A DNA stretch of 58,142 bases from Planctomycetota bacterium (lineage in GTDB: Bacteria > Planctomycetota > Planctomycetia > Pirellulales > Pirellulaceae): the NCBI GenBank assembly GCA_018969045.1, contig JAGWZB010000002.1, forward strand, positions 1-58,142, given 5' to 3'. Each line of letters begins with the position of its first letter. Position 1 is the first letter of the stretch. The notes beneath the pieces are model-generated. The model was not told where the DNA came from, did no database searches, and worked only from the letters and a program-made list of their open reading frames with translations. This document shows, one piece after another, positions 19,025 to 57,402 of this stretch. The position numbers were made by a program, and so were the translations under genes.

Positions 19025-20434
19025 TTAGGATTCGTCGAGTTCTTCGAAGATCACTTCGTCAGACTCAGGGCTTGCTGCTGGCTGGGAGCCCAAGCCCCAT
19101 TGCTGCATCCGACGCAAAAGGCGTGCGCGAGAGATCCCCAGTGACTTGGCAGCCGCCGTGTTGTTTCTTGGGTGCAAGGAGATGGCTCGCTCGATCAGCA
19201 TCCTTTCGAGTCGCTCTAGAACTTGGTCCAGATCGATCGGCTCGGAGGCAACAGGCCGTTCGATATGCGAAGGATAGGTTCGAAGCGAGATCGGCAAATG
19301 GCTCTCTTCGAGCACTCCTTGGGTCGCCGTCCTGGTCGCATGCACGAGGGCTTGGTCCAATTCATCGATATCGCCCGGCCATGAATAAGCCAAGAGCGCG
19401 TCTAGGAAGGCCGGTGTCCATTGAATGCCCTGAAATCGACGCATCCAAGCAAACAAGAGACTTTCGATCTCGTCGGTTCGGCTCGATAACGGCAAGACTT
19501 CGATTTTTTGGATCCGGCTGTTGGCGATTAGCCAGTCCCAGTGCTCAGAACTCTTGCTCACCAGGTCCATCGCATCGGTTTGTACGGTGGTTATATAGTT
19601 CCACTTGCGTTGCCGGCAGATTCTCGCAAGCGATTCGCGCAGTTGGTGTGGCAACATTTCCAATCGATGCAGGATCACCTCGGGAGTGTCCCCTTTGCGC
19701 CCCGTGTCATCGATCCACTCGATGGTGCTCTGGAGTAAATCCTTGTCCATCAAAGAGCAATCGATCGTAAAAGGCTGAGCCTTGGTCCCCTGTTGGCTCC
19801 GTTTCAATCGCCGCTCTTTGAAGATCAGCCCAGCGATCATGACAAGGTAGTTTCCGGGCTGGCCCGTAAGCTCCAGAGAATGCTCGCCTGTGATGGCCAA
19901 CTGCAACTGCATTCGCAGGGATTGGCTCGCAAGCGACTGTCCTTGAAGAAACCAAACGCTATCGAGATTGGAATGACTTTCCCAAATCGCAAGCGAGGGG
20001 ACTTCGACCCTCTGATGAAAATCTCTGTCGAGGACCGATTGCAAATCACCGCGATCGGGTTTCAGTACGCACAAGGTACATGGATCTTTGGCGTCCCCCA
20101 GCGGGATGATCCAGCGCAACAGGGATTCATCCTTGGAAGAGTCTTCGTTAGGTAACTGATCGCCAACGCATTGAATCGTGCCCACGGAGACGTTTGTCGG
20201 CAAAGCGAGCCACCGAGCTAGGGTGGTTCGCGATGGGGTTGGCTCGAGCGAATCCGGTTTGCAGTTGAGTCCTAGGGGTTCTGGGCTTAGTTCAGGAAAC
20301 AGCGACTCGAATGCTTCGTTGACAAACACCAACTGCGAGTCTTCCGACAAGACCCACATCGGGTATTCCGACGATCCGATCAGGCGAGCGATCTGGCGTT
20401 TGGGTACGGAGCGCTGTGGCTGAGCCTCAGACAT
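19025..20434 (-). CDS. NtrC-like regulator with ATPase-dead AAA+ domain, PAS domain and Fis-type HTH
   Basis: Residues ~15-60 (numbered from ATG 20434) form a PAS-like segment (SEYPMWVLSEDSQLVFVNEAF). The middle is recognisably the sigma-54 activator AAA+ fold but degenerate. The Walker A position reads LTGQPGNYLVMIAGLIF without the Lys, Walker B is lost, and the GAFTGA loop is deleted. The lid survives as YSWPGDIDELDQALVHA. The C-terminus is a Fis-type HTH (NNTAAAKSLGISRARLLRRM). It likely binds DNA and responds to a PAS ligand without ATP hydrolysis or sigma-54 contact. An in-frame GTG at 20482 lies inside the terminator of the upstream gene, so ATG 20434 (469 aa) is chosen. Confidence 0.75.
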   Translation of the reverse strand: MSEAQPQRSVPKRQIARLIGSSEYPMWVLSEDSQLVFVNEAFESLFPELSPEPLGLNCKPDSLEPTPSRTTLARWLALPTNVSVGTIQCVGDQLPNEDSSKDESLLRWIIPLGDAKDPCTLCVLKPDRGDLQSVLDRDFHQRVEVPSLAIWESHSNLDSVWFLQGQSLASQSLRMQLQLAITGEHSLELTGQPGNYLVMIAGLIFKERRLKRSQQGTKAQPFTIDCSLMDKDLLQSTIEWIDDTGRKGDTPEVILHRLEMLPHQLRESLARICRQRKWNYITTVQTDAMDLVSKSSEHWDWLIANSRIQKIEVLPLSSRTDEIESLLFAWMRRFQGIQWTPAFLDALLAYSWPGDIDELDQALVHATRTATQGVLEESHLPISLRTYPSHIERPVASEPIDLDQVLERLERMLIERAISLHPRNNTAAAKSLGISRARLLRRMQQWGLGSQPAASPESDEVIFEELDES

Positions 20435-20467
20435 GCGTCGACTGCCAATTTCGATAGTTGGATAATG

Positions 20468-20510
20468 CAAAAACAAAAACACCGCAGGAGGCCGACGGCA
20501 ACCTGCGGTG
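20468..20510 (-). terminator. Strong Rho-independent terminator of the Tyr-rich secreted protein gene
   Basis: On the minus strand a perfect 9-bp stem (CACCGCAGG / CCTGCGGTG, 13-base loop) is followed by TTTTTGTTTTT. It lies 53 bases after the stop at 20564 and separates this gene from the regulator gene downstream. Confidence 0.85.
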
Positions 20511-20563
20511 TGCGGGAATGGAATGCAGCCTTCAAAGGCTCGCCGTAGGATCGTCTCAGAGGA

Positions 20564-21133: not shown

Positions 21134-21586
21134 ATGTCCTTCCAAATCCAAAAAGGGAAAGCCCTCGACGCCTTGAATCTGACTCCGCTGATCGACGTGG
21201 TTTTTCTGCTGCTGATTTTTTTTCTGGTCGCAACTCAGTTTTCCCAAGACGACGAGCAGTTGCCAATCCAGCTCCCTTCGGCCAAAAGCGCACTGCCGAT
21301 GACGGTCCAACCCGACGAACTTGTCATCAGCATCGGACAAGATGGAACCTACATGCTCGCCGGCCAGCGCTTGACGATCCAGCAACTCGAACCCTTGTTG
21401 GCCAAGGCGGTCTTGGACAATCCGGTCCAACAGACCGTGATTCTTCGTGGGGATAAACGGGTCGAGTTCCAATCGGTCGTTTCGCTGATCGATCTGTGCA
21501 ATCGGTTAAAAGTCCCTTCGTATCGCATCACAACGCTTGAAGATCCCAAGGACCAAAGTGAATTGCCCCCAGGGTCGCAACCATGA
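21134..21586 (+). CDS. ExbD/TolR-family protein
   Basis: ATG 21134 gives 150 residues. The cytoplasmic start ALDALNLTPLIDVVFLLLIFFLVATQF is the ExbD/TolR signature: a single membrane span carrying the conserved Asp (LTPLIDVVF) that takes part in proton-driven energy transfer. A periplasmic domain follows (ELVISIGQDGTYMLAGQRL, VILRGDKRVEFQSVVSLIDLC). ExbD normally works with an ExbB/TolQ channel, but none is encoded in the window. Its stop overlaps the next start as ATGA, so it is translationally coupled to the large membrane protein with a squalene-cyclase-like domain. A longer start at 21089 lacks family resemblance. Confidence 0.9.
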   Translation: MSFQIQKGKALDALNLTPLIDVVFLLLIFFLVATQFSQDDEQLPIQLPSAKSALPMTVQPDELVISIGQDGTYMLAGQRLTIQQLEPLLAKAVLDNPVQQTVILRGDKRVEFQSVVSLIDLCNRLKVPSYRITTLEDPKDQSELPPGSQP

Positions 21587-24030
21587 CCGCTTCGGGTACC
21601 AATCGAGCATCCAACGTTTGGCTATTGGACTTGGGGATCGCCTTGCTGGGCCTGTTGGTCATGTTTACGGTCCTGCGAGTATTGCGATTTGACGACCCAA
21701 GGATTCTCTACAACGCTTGGACGTATTGCCTTGCGATTCCGACGGTGATTATCTCCTCGACGATGCTTGCACATGTGATGATCCCTCAGAATGCCGAACG
21801 GTCTATTCAAACGGGATTTCTCTTGAGCGTGTTGGTCCACTTGGGTTTGACCTTGGCAGCCATCAATACCGTTTTGTTCTCAGGGCTCTGGCAAGAGGGC
21901 ACTGAGAAAATCGAGATGAAACTCAAGTCGATGTCGCAAGGGACTTCCTTCCAAGTGCCTGCTGTAAACTCGGACAACTCTGTGCCAGATTATCTGCGAC
22001 CGGTGCAAAACCAAATCGATCCGGCCACCGACATCGAGCTGAAACCTACGGCCTTGCCGCCAGAGTCTCTTGAACTGCTTGAAACTCCAAATCAGATCAA
22101 AATCGATACCAACAAAACTCTTCAAGACGATCAGCTTGCAAGCGTTACGATGGACCAGCCAGCAGTGCAAGCCCAAGAGGCCCAAAACATCGAACGTCCT
22201 GAATTCCAGATCCATCCGATTCGGCCTGCTGCGATTCAGGCCCCGACGGTCCAGCAGACCCCACTTGCTCAAGATAGCTTACCGGAGTCCAAGCCGTTGT
22301 CGGTAGATCGTGCGGCGAGCGATCCGGTAGCGAGCCTCCAGAGGGCCACCGAGATTCCTCAGGTAGAACCCATGGCTCAAGAGACCGGCCCAACCAATAC
22401 CGCCGCTTCCCTCGAGGCCTCTGCGATGGCGTTGCAGCGTGTACGTATCGAAAGACAGCTTAGCAATGCCATTGAATCCACCAATGCTCCAGAGGCTCCG
22501 ACCGATGTACCACCAAAATCATCCAAGCCGACCGATCGCGCAGCGAGCCTAAGCGGCATCACGACCACAGTACCCTTGGACAAGATTCCACGAGAACCCA
22601 GAGCAACAGACCCAGCACCATCGACCGGTGGGTCGGGCGGGTCTGCCAGTCAATCGCTTGGCGATCTGCTGGGCGATCGAGGATCCATGACCCGTCGCAA
22701 TCCGACATCGTCTGCGGCCCTGAGCAGCGACAGCCCTGGAGGTCTTGCTTACAGCGATCCGATCGCCAGCTCGGCAGCATCGTCTTGGTCCAAAAGATCC
22801 TCGATCGAGTTACCGAGAATCAGCGATGCAGGAGGGACGGTACCAGGACTGGAGAATTTTCGCCCTGCAAGCAGTAGCAACAAGCAAGCTTCAGGTGGTC
22901 TGGTACCAATCCCGGCACCGGCTTTCCAGCAACGGGCCCGCCGCATGGATGATTCGAGCAATGAGGAACTCAAAGCCATGGGGCCACTAGGGCCCAAGAC
23001 CGAAGAGTCCATCGAACGAGGACTGGAGTTTTTGGCCAAGCACCAGCGGAGCGATGGTTCTTGGAAATTAGAAGACTTTGGACAGAAAACTGTGATACGA
23101 AGCGACACAGCAGCAACGGCTCTGTCGTTGCTTTCCTTTCAAGGAGCAGGATATTCCCATGTGCAGTTCAAATACCAGAAAGAGTGCCGCAAAGCCATCG
23201 ACTTTCTGGTCTCTGGCCAAAAGCTAAACGGTGATTTGTATCGGTCCATGGACGAAGCGTCGGATCGCAACGGATGGATCTACAGCCATGCGATTGCAAC
23301 GTTGGCGTTGTGCGAAGCCTATGGGATGACCCGTGACGAGAATCTGCGCGCGTCGGCTCAGCGGGCCGTCGATTTCTTGGTCGATAGTCAAGATCGCCAG
23401 GAGGGAGGTTGGAGGTATGCACCCAGAATAGGCAGCGACACGAGCGTCACGGGCTGGGGGATGATGGCCCTCAAGAGCGCAGAACTTTCTGGCCTATATG
23501 TACCTGGGCAGACTTTCCAAGGGATCGAAAAGTGGCTAGATCATTCCCAAGCAAGTGCCAGAGAGAAGTTCTTGTACCGATACAACTGGCTTGCAAACCA
23601 ACCCGAGACCAAGCATGGAGCGCTACCGACTCCGGTGATGACCAGTGTCGGTTTGCTGATGCGACTGTACATGGGTTGGAAGCGAGACAATCCGGCGATG
23701 GCTCAAGGAGCCGATTGGTTGCTCAGGAAATTGCCTGCAGACGAAACTTCGCAAACATCCGTGCGGGATACTTACTACTGGTACTATGCCACCCAAGTTT
23801 TGTTCCACATGGGAGGCCAGCGATGGAAATCGTGGTACGAGTCCCTTTACCCGATGCTTATCGAATCCCAGGTGACCCAGGGACCCTATGCAGGTTCGTG
23901 GGAACCCATGGGGCCAGCCCCCGACGCCTGGGGAGAATATGCAGGCCGATTGTATGTCACGACGATGAATTTGCTGTCGCTTGAAGTCACTTACAGGCAT
24001 CTTCCGATCTACGAAGCGACATCGCGATAG
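21583..24030 (+). CDS. Membrane-anchored protein with long linker and prenyltransferase/squalene-oxidase-type repeat domain
   Basis: An 815-residue protein of three parts. First, three membrane spans at about 12-34, 45-67 and 75-99. Second, a ~360-residue Pro/Ala/Ser/Gln-rich linker of low complexity. Third, from about 470 to 800, an alpha/alpha toroid with QW-like repeats (FLAKHQRSDGSW, GWIYSHAIATLALCEAYG, FLVDSQDRQEGGWRY, GSWEPMGPAPDAWGEYAGR). The fold is that of squalene cyclases, but the catalytic DxDD motif of cyclases is not visible, so it is probably a binding or structural module. Coupling to ExbD (ATGA overlap) and a TonB-like design (membrane anchor, long linker, distal domain) suggest energy transfer across the periplasm. 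That is inference. Confidence 0.75.
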   Translation: MTASGTNRASNVWLLDLGIALLGLLVMFTVLRVLRFDDPRILYNAWTYCLAIPTVIISSTMLAHVMIPQNAERSIQTGFLLSVLVHLGLTLAAINTVLFSGLWQEGTEKIEMKLKSMSQGTSFQVPAVNSDNSVPDYLRPVQNQIDPATDIELKPTALPPESLELLETPNQIKIDTNKTLQDDQLASVTMDQPAVQAQEAQNIERPEFQIHPIRPAAIQAPTVQQTPLAQDSLPESKPLSVDRAASDPVASLQRATEIPQVEPMAQETGPTNTAASLEASAMALQRVRIERQLSNAIESTNAPEAPTDVPPKSSKPTDRAASLSGITTTVPLDKIPREPRATDPAPSTGGSGGSASQSLGDLLGDRGSMTRRNPTSSAALSSDSPGGLAYSDPIASSAASSWSKRSSIELPRISDAGGTVPGLENFRPASSSNKQASGGLVPIPAPAFQQRARRMDDSSNEELKAMGPLGPKTEESIERGLEFLAKHQRSDGSWKLEDFGQKTVIRSDTAATALSLLSFQGAGYSHVQFKYQKECRKAIDFLVSGQKLNGDLYRSMDEASDRNGWIYSHAIATLALCEAYGMTRDENLRASAQRAVDFLVDSQDRQEGGWRYAPRIGSDTSVTGWGMMALKSAELSGLYVPGQTFQGIEKWLDHSQASAREKFLYRYNWLANQPETKHGALPTPVMTSVGLLMRLYMGWKRDNPAMAQGADWLLRKLPADETSQTSVRDTYYWYYATQVLFHMGGQRWKSWYESLYPMLIESQVTQGPYAGSWEPMGPAPDAWGEYAGRLYVTTMNLLSLEVTYRHLPIYEATSR

Positions 24031-24051: not shown

Positions 24052-24084
24052 TTGACATTTTGCACCGGTGGTGAAAGATATGTT
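24052..24084 (+). promoter_or_regulatory. Candidate greA promoter upstream of the leader hairpin
   Basis: A perfect -35 box TTGACA sits at 24052-24057, 21 bases after the preceding stop. The best -10 is TATGTT at 24079-24084 (four of six) with a long 21-base spacer; GATATG at 24077-24082 is an alternative. Transcription would start near 24091, just ahead of the hairpin at 24111. Confidence 0.4.
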
Positions 24085-24110
24085 GTTGTCGAAATAAACA
24101 GTCATTACCT

Positions 24111-24160
24111 GATGCGACCCTTTTGGCTTGAACGAGCCGAAAAAGGTCGCATCTTTTTTT
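24111..24160 (+). terminator. Intrinsic terminator inside the greA leader (probable attenuator)
   Basis: GATGCGACC (24111-24119) pairs perfectly with GGTCGCATC (24145-24153). The stem extends inward through an A-T run and GGCT/AGCC around a six-base loop, about 17 pairs in all, and is followed by seven T. The T-run ends only 21 bases before the greA ATG, and the AGGAG ribosome site is 10 bases away. No promoter fits between them, so greA transcripts must pass this terminator. It may also end transcripts of the upstream ExbD unit. Confidence 0.85.
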
Positions 24161-24181
24161 CTGTCGGAACAGGAGTTTGCA

Positions 24182-24664
24182 ATGAGCGATTACGTGCCTA
24201 TGACCCGCGAAGGGTACAATCGAATCAAGGCCGAAATCGAACGCTTGGAAAACGAGGAGATGCCCCGCATTGCCGAGAAGATCGCCGAGGCGCGAGCCGA
24301 AGGGGATCTCAAGGAGAATGCCGAGTACCATGCTCAGCGTGAGAACCAAGGCCTCATGCAAGCCAAAATCAATTCGCTGAAAGTCAAGTTGGCCAGCGCC
24401 CACATCGTCGATACCGCTTCGATGCCCAAAGATCGCGTGGCATTTGGGGCAAGGGTCAAGCTCAAGGACTTGAAGTTCGGCGACGAGGAAGAGTACACCT
24501 TGGTCGGTGCAGGTGACGAAAACTATGAGACCGGTAGGATTTTAACCACCAGTCCTTTTGCGGTTGCCATGATGGGCAAGAAGGTGGGCGAGACCATGGA
24601 ATTCAAAGCCCCTGGTGGACTGATGAAATACGAAGTCCTCGAGATCCATTTCGACGAGGTCTAA
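24182..24664 (+). CDS. greA: Transcript cleavage factor GreA
   Basis: ATG 24182 with AGGAG six bases upstream gives 160 residues, the usual GreA length. The N-terminal coiled-coil opens [22 protein letters not shown]. The conserved tip segment [19 protein letters not shown] carries the acidic residues that enter the RNA polymerase secondary channel. The C-terminal FKBP-like domain has [13 protein letters not shown] and a degenerate SPxxxALxGKKVGE block ([16 protein letters not shown]). It rescues backtracked RNA polymerase by stimulating transcript cleavage. An in-frame start at 24128 would lie in the terminator hairpin and is rejected. Its leader contains an intrinsic terminator, suggesting autoregulation as known for the E. 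coli greA leader. Confidence 0.97.
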
Positions 24665-55707: not shown

Positions 55708-57357
55708 ATGATTAGCAAAACGGCCTTCACATCCAAGCGATGGAAAAAGATAACAACGACCCTGGCTTGGTTGATGACCCTTTGGGTTTGTTCCAGTGGT
55801 CTGAGGCTCCATGCCGAGGATCGACCGAACATCCTATTTATCTTTTCGGACGATCACGCTCAAGCAGCCATTTCGGCTTACGGGTCTAAAGTCAATACGA
55901 CACCCCATTTGGACCGGATGGCCAAAGAAGGTGCACGATTTGTCAACTCCTTTGTGACCAACTCGATTTGCACACCGAGCCGAGCCACGCTTCTGACCGG
56001 ACAGTATTCCCATTGCAATGGAGTCCCCGTTTTCAATCGGTTTGATGGATCGAGGGATCATGTTGCCAAACGATTGCAGCAAGCGGGCTACCACACCGGG
56101 ATGATCGGCAAGTGGCACTTAGGGAGCGATCCAACCGGTTTTGATCGCTGGATCGTCCTGCCTGGACAAGGTGCTTATTGGAACCCTCAGTTTCTGGTCC
56201 CTGGTCACAAGTTGACCATCGAGGGGCATTGCACCGAAATCACCACGGAGCTTGGAATCGAGTTCCTCGAAACAAGACCTGCAGACAAGCCGTTCTTCTT
56301 GATGTTGCATCACAAAGCACCCCACCGAGAATGGGAGCCCGACAGCAAAAACAAAGCAGCATTCCAAGATCGCAAATTTCCTGAACCCGATACCCTTTGG
56401 GACGATTACTCGACTCGACCTGCGGCACTCCCCGAAAACGAACAAACGATTGCCAATGACCTGACACGCCGCGATTTGAAACTTACCCCTCCCGAAGAAC
56501 TCCAAGGACAAGAACGAAACAAGTGGTTGGGTGTCAAACCTACCAGCGTCCTGGTCGATGGGAAAACGATCGAAGGCAAGGAACTCGTCAAGTGGAAGTA
56601 TCAGCGTTACATGCAAGACTACTTGGCCTGTGTCCAAGGGGTCGACGATAGCGTCGGAGCGATGCTCGATTATTTGGACAAGAAAGGCCTATCGAAAAAC
56701 ACAATCGTCATTTATACGGCTGACAATGGTTGGTACTTAGGTGAGCTCGGCATGTACGACAAACGATTCATGTACGAACCGGGTTTGCGATCTCCTTTGA
56801 TCATGCGCGGGCCAGGGATCCAACCCGGCTCGACCCCCGAAGCCATGGTGGCCAACATCGATCTTGCACCGACCTTTCTTGCGTTTGCCAATGCCCCAGT
56901 CCCGGATTCCATGCAAGGCAAATCGCTGCTGCCTCTGCTGCAAGGTCAAGCACCCAGCGACTGGCGCACGTCGGTTTACTATCGCTACTACCACGATCCA
57001 GGTCATCACAATACTCGCGCTCATTACGGGGTCCGAACGGCGACCCATAAATTGATCCATTACTGGCGCAAAGACGCCTATGAAATGTTCGATCTTATCA
57101 GCGATCCAAACGAACAGAACAACTTGCTCCATGATCCTCAAAGTTCTAACAGCCCGGCGACTGCAAAACTCTTTGCTGAGTTGAAAGTAGAAGCCCAACG
57201 GTTGCAAAATCTCTATCAAGACGACGGCAAATACGCAGACCCACAGACATGGCCTAAAGGTGGCTCCGATGGCCCCTTTGATGACAAACAGCCACTGGGC
57301 AAGAAAACCGTCCCGCAAGCGATCGCCCAAGCGACCGCAGGCTCCAAAGGGGGTTAG
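55708..57357 (+). CDS. Secreted sulfatase (formylglycine, type I)
   Basis: A 549-residue enzyme with a long basic signal peptide (SKRWKKITTTLAWLMTLWVCSSG). The catalytic motif C88-T-P-S-R91-A-T-L-L-T-G is intact; C88 is converted to formylglycine. Metal ligands include D48-D49 (FIFSDDHAQ) and IYTADNGWYLGELGMYDKR. Its closest groups are planctomycete sulfatases acting on sulfated polysaccharides. Conversion of Cys needs an FGE (sulfatase-modifying factor), not encoded here. It follows the mutarotase-like gene by 79 bases and ends in a clear terminator at 57368-57402. Confidence 0.95.
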   Translation: MISKTAFTSKRWKKITTTLAWLMTLWVCSSGLRLHAEDRPNILFIFSDDHAQAAISAYGSKVNTTPHLDRMAKEGARFVNSFVTNSICTPSRATLLTGQYSHCNGVPVFNRFDGSRDHVAKRLQQAGYHTGMIGKWHLGSDPTGFDRWIVLPGQGAYWNPQFLVPGHKLTIEGHCTEITTELGIEFLETRPADKPFFLMLHHKAPHREWEPDSKNKAAFQDRKFPEPDTLWDDYSTRPAALPENEQTIANDLTRRDLKLTPPEELQGQERNKWLGVKPTSVLVDGKTIEGKELVKWKYQRYMQDYLACVQGVDDSVGAMLDYLDKKGLSKNTIVIYTADNGWYLGELGMYDKRFMYEPGLRSPLIMRGPGIQPGSTPEAMVANIDLAPTFLAFANAPVPDSMQGKSLLPLLQGQAPSDWRTSVYYRYYHDPGHHNTRAHYGVRTATHKLIHYWRKDAYEMFDLISDPNEQNNLLHDPQSSNSPATAKLFAELKVEAQRLQNLYQDDGKYADPQTWPKGGSDGPFDDKQPLGKKTVPQAIAQATAGSKGG

Positions 57358-57367
57358 TGTCTCCAAA

Positions 57368-57402
57368 ACCCCCTATTAAGGGGGTGTCGCACCCCTTTTT
57401 TT
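57368..57402 (+). terminator. Terminator of the sulfatase unit with two competing hairpins
   Basis: GGGGTG-TCG-CACCCC (57381-57395) followed by seven T is a standard terminator. Its 5' arm also pairs with ACCCCC upstream (57368-57373), forming an alternative hairpin around TATTAA, so the two stems exclude each other. Confidence 0.8.

Follow-up and report, generated by a model that had tools for sequence, protein, structure and literature searches.

A conserved hairpin and T run in the greA leader of Pirellulales, probably a promoter-proximal attenuator

The greA leader and its parts

In the 58,142-nucleotide stretch of planctomycete DNA analysed here (the window), a strong hairpin followed by a run of T stands immediately ahead of greA, and the question that this locus raises is whether the hairpin ends the transcript of an upstream gene or acts on greA from within its own leader. 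The gene itself (24182-24664, plus strand, 160 aa) was identified as transcript cleavage factor GreA by both NCBIfam and Pfam, and its product shares 38% identity with GreA of E. coli and retains the acidic tip residues D42 and E45. Upstream of it, on the same strand, we could read directly a TTGACA hexamer (24052-24057), which would be the -35 element of a greA promoter, a run of seven T (24154-24160) that would form the U-tract of a terminator, and the ribosome-binding site AGGAG (24171-24175). A candidate -10 element, AAAGAT (24074-24079), follows the -35 hexamer after a spacer of 16 bases, and a start placed from it predicts a short leader RNA of ~74 nt (24086-24160). The sequence-only reading of this locus had described a 17-pair hairpin plus seven T ending 21 bases before the greA ATG (24182), together with a TTGACA at 24052. 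Both are there, although RNAfold draws the stem (24111-24153) with 18 pairs and with interruptions, and 10 bases lie between the T run and AGGAG. Hairpin and T run together fold at -26.8 kcal/mol, compared with -9.5 +/- 2.5 kcal/mol for shuffled sequence (z -6.9), and not one of 200 shuffles equalled this value. A simple promoter/terminator scanner applied to the window had neither the greA promoter nor the greA terminator among its calls.

Other candidate features of the leader were considered and rejected. A five-codon frame with its ATG at 24080, overlapping the predicted start, is not conserved, as judged by eye: four related leaders (L003-L006) are without the ATG, and a fifth (L033) has the ATG with a different stop. 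A small stem, CTGT/ACAG, beside the ribosome-binding site was seen by eye in the closest relatives only, and a match of the leader to the Rfam family GEBRO, at 15.4 bits against a gathering score of 284.7, was taken as chance.

Conservation within the genus

Of the 27 same-genus genomes, 26 yielded greA (the G001 match falls into two pieces, with an intact leader). The sequence-only reading would have been contradicted by leaders of close relatives that lacked the hairpin; all 26 readable leaders carry it together with the T run, and the stem ends 24-38 bases ahead of the ATG. The pattern GATGCGRC-N15/40-GTCGCATCTTTTT occurs as one copy in 20 of the 27 genomes, each time adjoining greA by coordinates, and has zero copies in the remaining seven; the same pattern taken backwards, as a control, gave 0. 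The earlier suggestion that aligned leaders be inspected for covarying stems was borne out by 23 distinct genus leaders, in which 7 of 14 pairs were changed on both sides and the both-side-changed cells numbered 33, compared with 9.0 +/- 4.0 in shuffles that ignore relatedness. Stem cells able to pair made up 93.5%, a figure that fell to 40-46% once the partners were slid. Within the genus the stem is nearly invariant at its base and highly variable in its upper part and loop, and five T columns are invariant across the 23 distinct leaders. A cross-family alignment (A2) was poor and was left out of the counts.

Background rate of terminator-like sites

As background we used 458,142 bases, consisting of the window and 400 kb from one same-genus genome. 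A strict terminator scan, which superseded a lenient one (46/313 ORFs), returned 48 terminator-like sites in this sequence, which holds 344 gene-like ORFs. When every candidate start was recounted, six of the 48 sites were found to sit 15-70 bases ahead of one; two of these are inside ORFs and four outside (greA, window 20479 on the minus strand, window 57396 and one at L143), and among the six the greA site has the top T-run score and the lowest folding energy. A promoter-terminator pair occurred seven times in the 916,284 bases of both strands, greA included, with an energy of -25.6 kcal/mol at greA and of -8.7 to -14.0 kcal/mol at the six others. The terminator test was passed by 272 of 3160 shuffled leaders (8.6%); its reverse-strand control, which covered a longer stretch, gave 8/158, and an upstream-region control gave 5 matches.

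Two further strong terminator-like hairpins were noted in the window. One, on the minus strand (20479-20511, -23.7 kcal/mol), lies between two minus-strand genes, 84 bases past the stop of the first and 44 bases ahead of the probable ATG of the second (ORF 19025-20482); it may be either another terminator of the leader type or an ordinary 3' terminator. The other, on the plus strand (57349-57396), is placed 38 bases past the stop of ORF 55708-57357, which appears by eye to be sulfatase-like, and 70 bases ahead of a short ORF, possibly not a gene; it looks like an ordinary 3' terminator.

A promoter motif ahead of the hairpin

Within the genus, TTGAC[A/T], 16-17 bases and a weak -10 (AAAGAT, AATGAT or similar) precede the hairpin in 24 of 26 leaders, compared with 1.8% of shuffles; the two leaders from which the motif is absent are those of G020 and G023. 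The weakness of the -10 had been named as a main doubt about this locus, and weak it is, with three of six consensus positions matched in the window, yet the same or a similar hexamer recurs at the same spacing throughout the genus. Outside the genus, a terminator lies 15-70 bases before greA in 67 leaders, and of the 66 long enough to be counted, 56 carry TTTACA-16/18-NANNNT (0.9% of shuffles). Another 66 leaders are without a terminator at 15-70 bases, a number that includes G038, whose leader reads N and which stands outside the survey sample described below; the promoter motif appeared in four of them within the 130 bases examined, and when the search was widened to 400 bases a promoter-terminator pair was found in 19, mostly farther from the ATG. 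Both the motif and its conservation point to a promoter upstream of the terminator.

Distribution across the order

The order was taken as Pirellulales, close greA loci being named Pirellula, Pirellulales and Blastopirellula; named loci of the order that came from a separate locus search were kept apart from the sample. The sample comprised 158 genomes with a readable leader, drawn from the genus, its relatives and, evenly, the rest of the order, and covering 86 genera and 19 families. Left out were G038, G450 (leader off the contig), G451 (split gene), and G044 and G058, where the only greA matches were weak and partial. No greA match was obtained for two of 60 genomes (G004 and G047) or, at E 1e-30, for 10 of 137 genomes in a second set. 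A terminator 15-70 bases before greA was present in 93/158 genomes, and a promoter and terminator within 400 bases of greA in 100/158, representing 51 of the 86 genera and 16 of the 19 families. One or the other was found in 112 genomes, and 46 of the 158 leaders had neither. The pair is missing from families f5 and f6 (one genome each) and f8 (0/22), scarce in f17 (4/21), and frequent in f7 (18/22) but there often farther from the ATG; from f8 and f17 it follows that greA can do without it.

The spacing of the parts differs between the genus and its relatives. In the 24 genus pairs the predicted start lies 24-92 bases (median 39) from the hairpin, whereas in the 76 pairs outside the genus the median gap is 8 bases, and in 44 of them it is 10 bases or less; the few negative gaps there reflect a fold that overlaps the predicted start. 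Outside the genus the stem ends 24 to 165 bases before the ATG (76 pairs), and the predicted leader RNA has a median length of 46 nt (56 relatives). A hairpin so close to the start in 44 of 76 relatives is placed as a stabilising stem would be, and might protect or shape the 5' end of the greA mRNA while terminating little or nothing. We consider this very unlikely, given a T run directly 3' of the stem with its five invariant columns and the much longer distance from start to hairpin in the genus. The order-wide counts are no test of such a role, because a T run was required for a leader to be counted.

Assignment of the terminator to greA

The gene directly upstream of greA (21583-24030) encodes a protein of 815 aa with a squalene-hopene-cyclase-like C-terminal domain. 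The sequence-only reading had allowed that the hairpin might mainly end an upstream ExbD transcript; ExbD is in fact not adjacent to greA, being encoded one gene further up. The concern behind that remark nevertheless applies to the actual neighbour, which is on the same strand and has its stop ~122 bases before the stem end, with no other terminator between this stop and the greA hairpin in the strict scan of the window; for these reasons the window hairpin may also end the upstream operon. That it is solely an ordinary 3' terminator of that operon, with greA transcribed from elsewhere, we judge unlikely. The hairpin stays with greA where the upstream gene has been replaced or is divergent, the conserved promoter motif is located upstream of the hairpin, and the distance from the T run to the ATG is only 21 bases.

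Divergent neighbours with Pfam support were found in six same-genus genomes, namely a glycosyltransferase (L009), ExbD (L021 and L022), a squalene-hopene-cyclase-like protein (L008), thioredoxin (L019) and creatininase (L015), and outside the genus as ThiF (L041), a short-chain dehydrogenase (L124) and enolase (L115), the last at a locus with the terminator and without the promoter motif. Calling upstream genes from their length alone proved unreliable, with antisense frames among the calls, and we used the 9 of 10 that Pfam confirmed (L011 had no match, and L023, which clusters with L019, was outside the Pfam scan). A small gene could still lie between a divergent neighbour and greA, for example within the 433-base gap of L015. 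Taken with the one genomic copy at greA, these replaced and divergent neighbours argue for a terminator that belongs to greA and against one of the upstream gene. Where a relative has a divergent neighbour, the doubt about an upstream transcript is thus largely removed, and in the window the hairpin may do both.

The constancy of this position also bears on a further explanation, in which the element before greA is chiefly the gene of a small RNA that works in trans. Such a gene could well produce an RNA of ~74 nt, or of 46 nt at the median in the 56 relatives, with a nearly fixed stem base, and GraL of E. coli is reported to act in trans as well (PMC6829880). Nonetheless, the element remains with greA as neighbourhoods change, its upper stem and loop vary widely, and single-stranded leader is scarce in most relatives outside the genus, so that we regard this as very unlikely.

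Proposed mechanism

Attenuation of greA, put forward by the sequence-only reading as a possibility, stands as the best reading of the locus, with a terminator behind its own promoter motif conserved across the genus and over a large part of the order; the link to GreA activity keeps a more tentative status. From sequence, greA probably possesses its own sigma-70-type promoter, which together with the intrinsic terminator in the leader would form a promoter-proximal attenuator. RNA polymerase would start near 24086, part of the transcripts would end at the U-tract near 24160 with release of the ~74 nt RNA, and the remaining transcripts would read through and allow GreA to be made.

An antiterminator was sought in 24 genus leaders, and no consistent alternative pairing was found; in two of the 24, the window included, the upstream leader pairs with the 5' arm more than in 95% of shuffles. 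The median gap of 8 bases outside the genus would leave scant or zero space for such a structure. As the hairpin is preceded by only a short stretch of RNA, which in most relatives outside the genus shrinks to almost nothing, control would probably be exerted via the transcribing polymerase and its factors, not via alternative RNA structure. The likeliest such factor would be GreA itself, giving homeostatic feedback on greA as reported for E. coli GraL; by analogy this is a serious possibility, if one to which we give somewhat less than even weight. Retention of D42 and E45 permits GraL-type feedback and is no demonstration of it.

Beyond the order

Among other planctomycetes, none of 21 greA loci had the promoter-terminator pair, and 9 of the 21 had a hairpin and T run 15-70 bases before greA. 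Farther out, 64 greA loci, the majority from Pseudomonadota and two of them labelled as planctomycetes, had a terminator within 300 bases in 11 cases and the pair, by a looser rule, in one. As a control, the strict and the loose promoter-plus-terminator rules were both applied to the E. coli greA leader, and both miss it, although the terminator part of the rule alone does detect the E. coli hairpin; the low pair counts (0/21 and 1/64) are consequently no proof of absence, and they fit an inherited layout as well as a separately evolved one.

At four loci (L166, L170, L171 and L172) a hairpin and T run stand 55-57 bases before greA, and the gene preceding them on the same strand was annotated by eye as an oxidoreductase. 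In L170 and L172 a TATAAA-like element comes 3' of the hairpin, which may therefore be the terminator of the upstream gene. In many other planctomycetes (for instance in families f24, f34, f59 and f70) the GreA match falls within an open frame of ~680-870 codons, so that GreA may form one section of a long protein in these.

Comparison with known systems

The closest described counterpart is GraL of E. coli, where, as here, an intrinsic terminator stands between the greA promoter or promoters and greA. In that system about one third of transcripts are reported to read through, and short RNAs of 37-59 nt are released, with 19 nt preceding the terminator structure (PMC6829880); the ~74 nt RNA of the window is, by comparison, a prediction from sequence. 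Autoregulation of E. coli greA is described as dependent on GraL acting in cis and on GreA that is catalytically active, and as observed in vivo and absent in vitro; an accessory factor yet to be identified is proposed in that study (PMC6829880). The two leaders differ in layout, with 28 bases between stem end and ATG in the window and ~102 in E. coli, and in sequence, as the Rfam family RF01769 (Enterobacteria greA leader) matches E. coli at 127.5 bits and does not match the window leader. Searched against Rfam, the window leader and nine relatives had no match at the gathering score, RF01769 included, and the best short blastn matches to E. coli span 10-11 bases (E 0.08-0.33). These missing sequence and Rfam matches speak for a separate origin. 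It is conceivable, as a rather speculative proposal, that these planctomycetes evolved separately from enterobacterial GraL a feedback device for greA whose RNA is nearly all terminator adjoining the start. As neither an aptamer nor an antiterminator would have room, sensing would fall to the early elongation complex itself, and the state of the polymerase, with GreA bound or not, would decide between a stop at ~30-75 nt and read-through.

Attenuators in greA/rnk leaders have been predicted in Proteobacteria, bacilli and Clostridia, the family being ranked seventh in that survey (Naville & Gautheret, 2010; PMC2965389). These share with the window a terminator upstream of a greA/rnk family gene. 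Each cluster of the survey was reported with a clear antiterminator, whereas no consistent one was found in the 24 genus leaders; an antiterminator may not be defining for the kind, because GraL has only 19 nt before its hairpin. The word Planctomycet is absent from the main text of PMC2965389, greA leaders go unmentioned in the available parts of PMC7724050 and PMC10942264, and no report on a planctomycete greA leader was recognised in our search of listings and open-licence literature.

With an intrinsic terminator in greA orientation within the leader, the window locus joins a known kind, the greA-leader attenuator, without a sequence match to the described enterobacterial one. Early termination before greA would thereby be extended beyond E. 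coli and the Proteobacteria, bacilli and Clostridia of the earlier survey to a phylum that its main text does not name. If distant bacteria do share this layout at the same gene, stopping transcription early would seem to be a general means of setting the GreA level, and the ~100 leaders found here, which differ in sequence and many of which consist of a start site and a terminator, offer material for establishing the minimum that such feedback needs.
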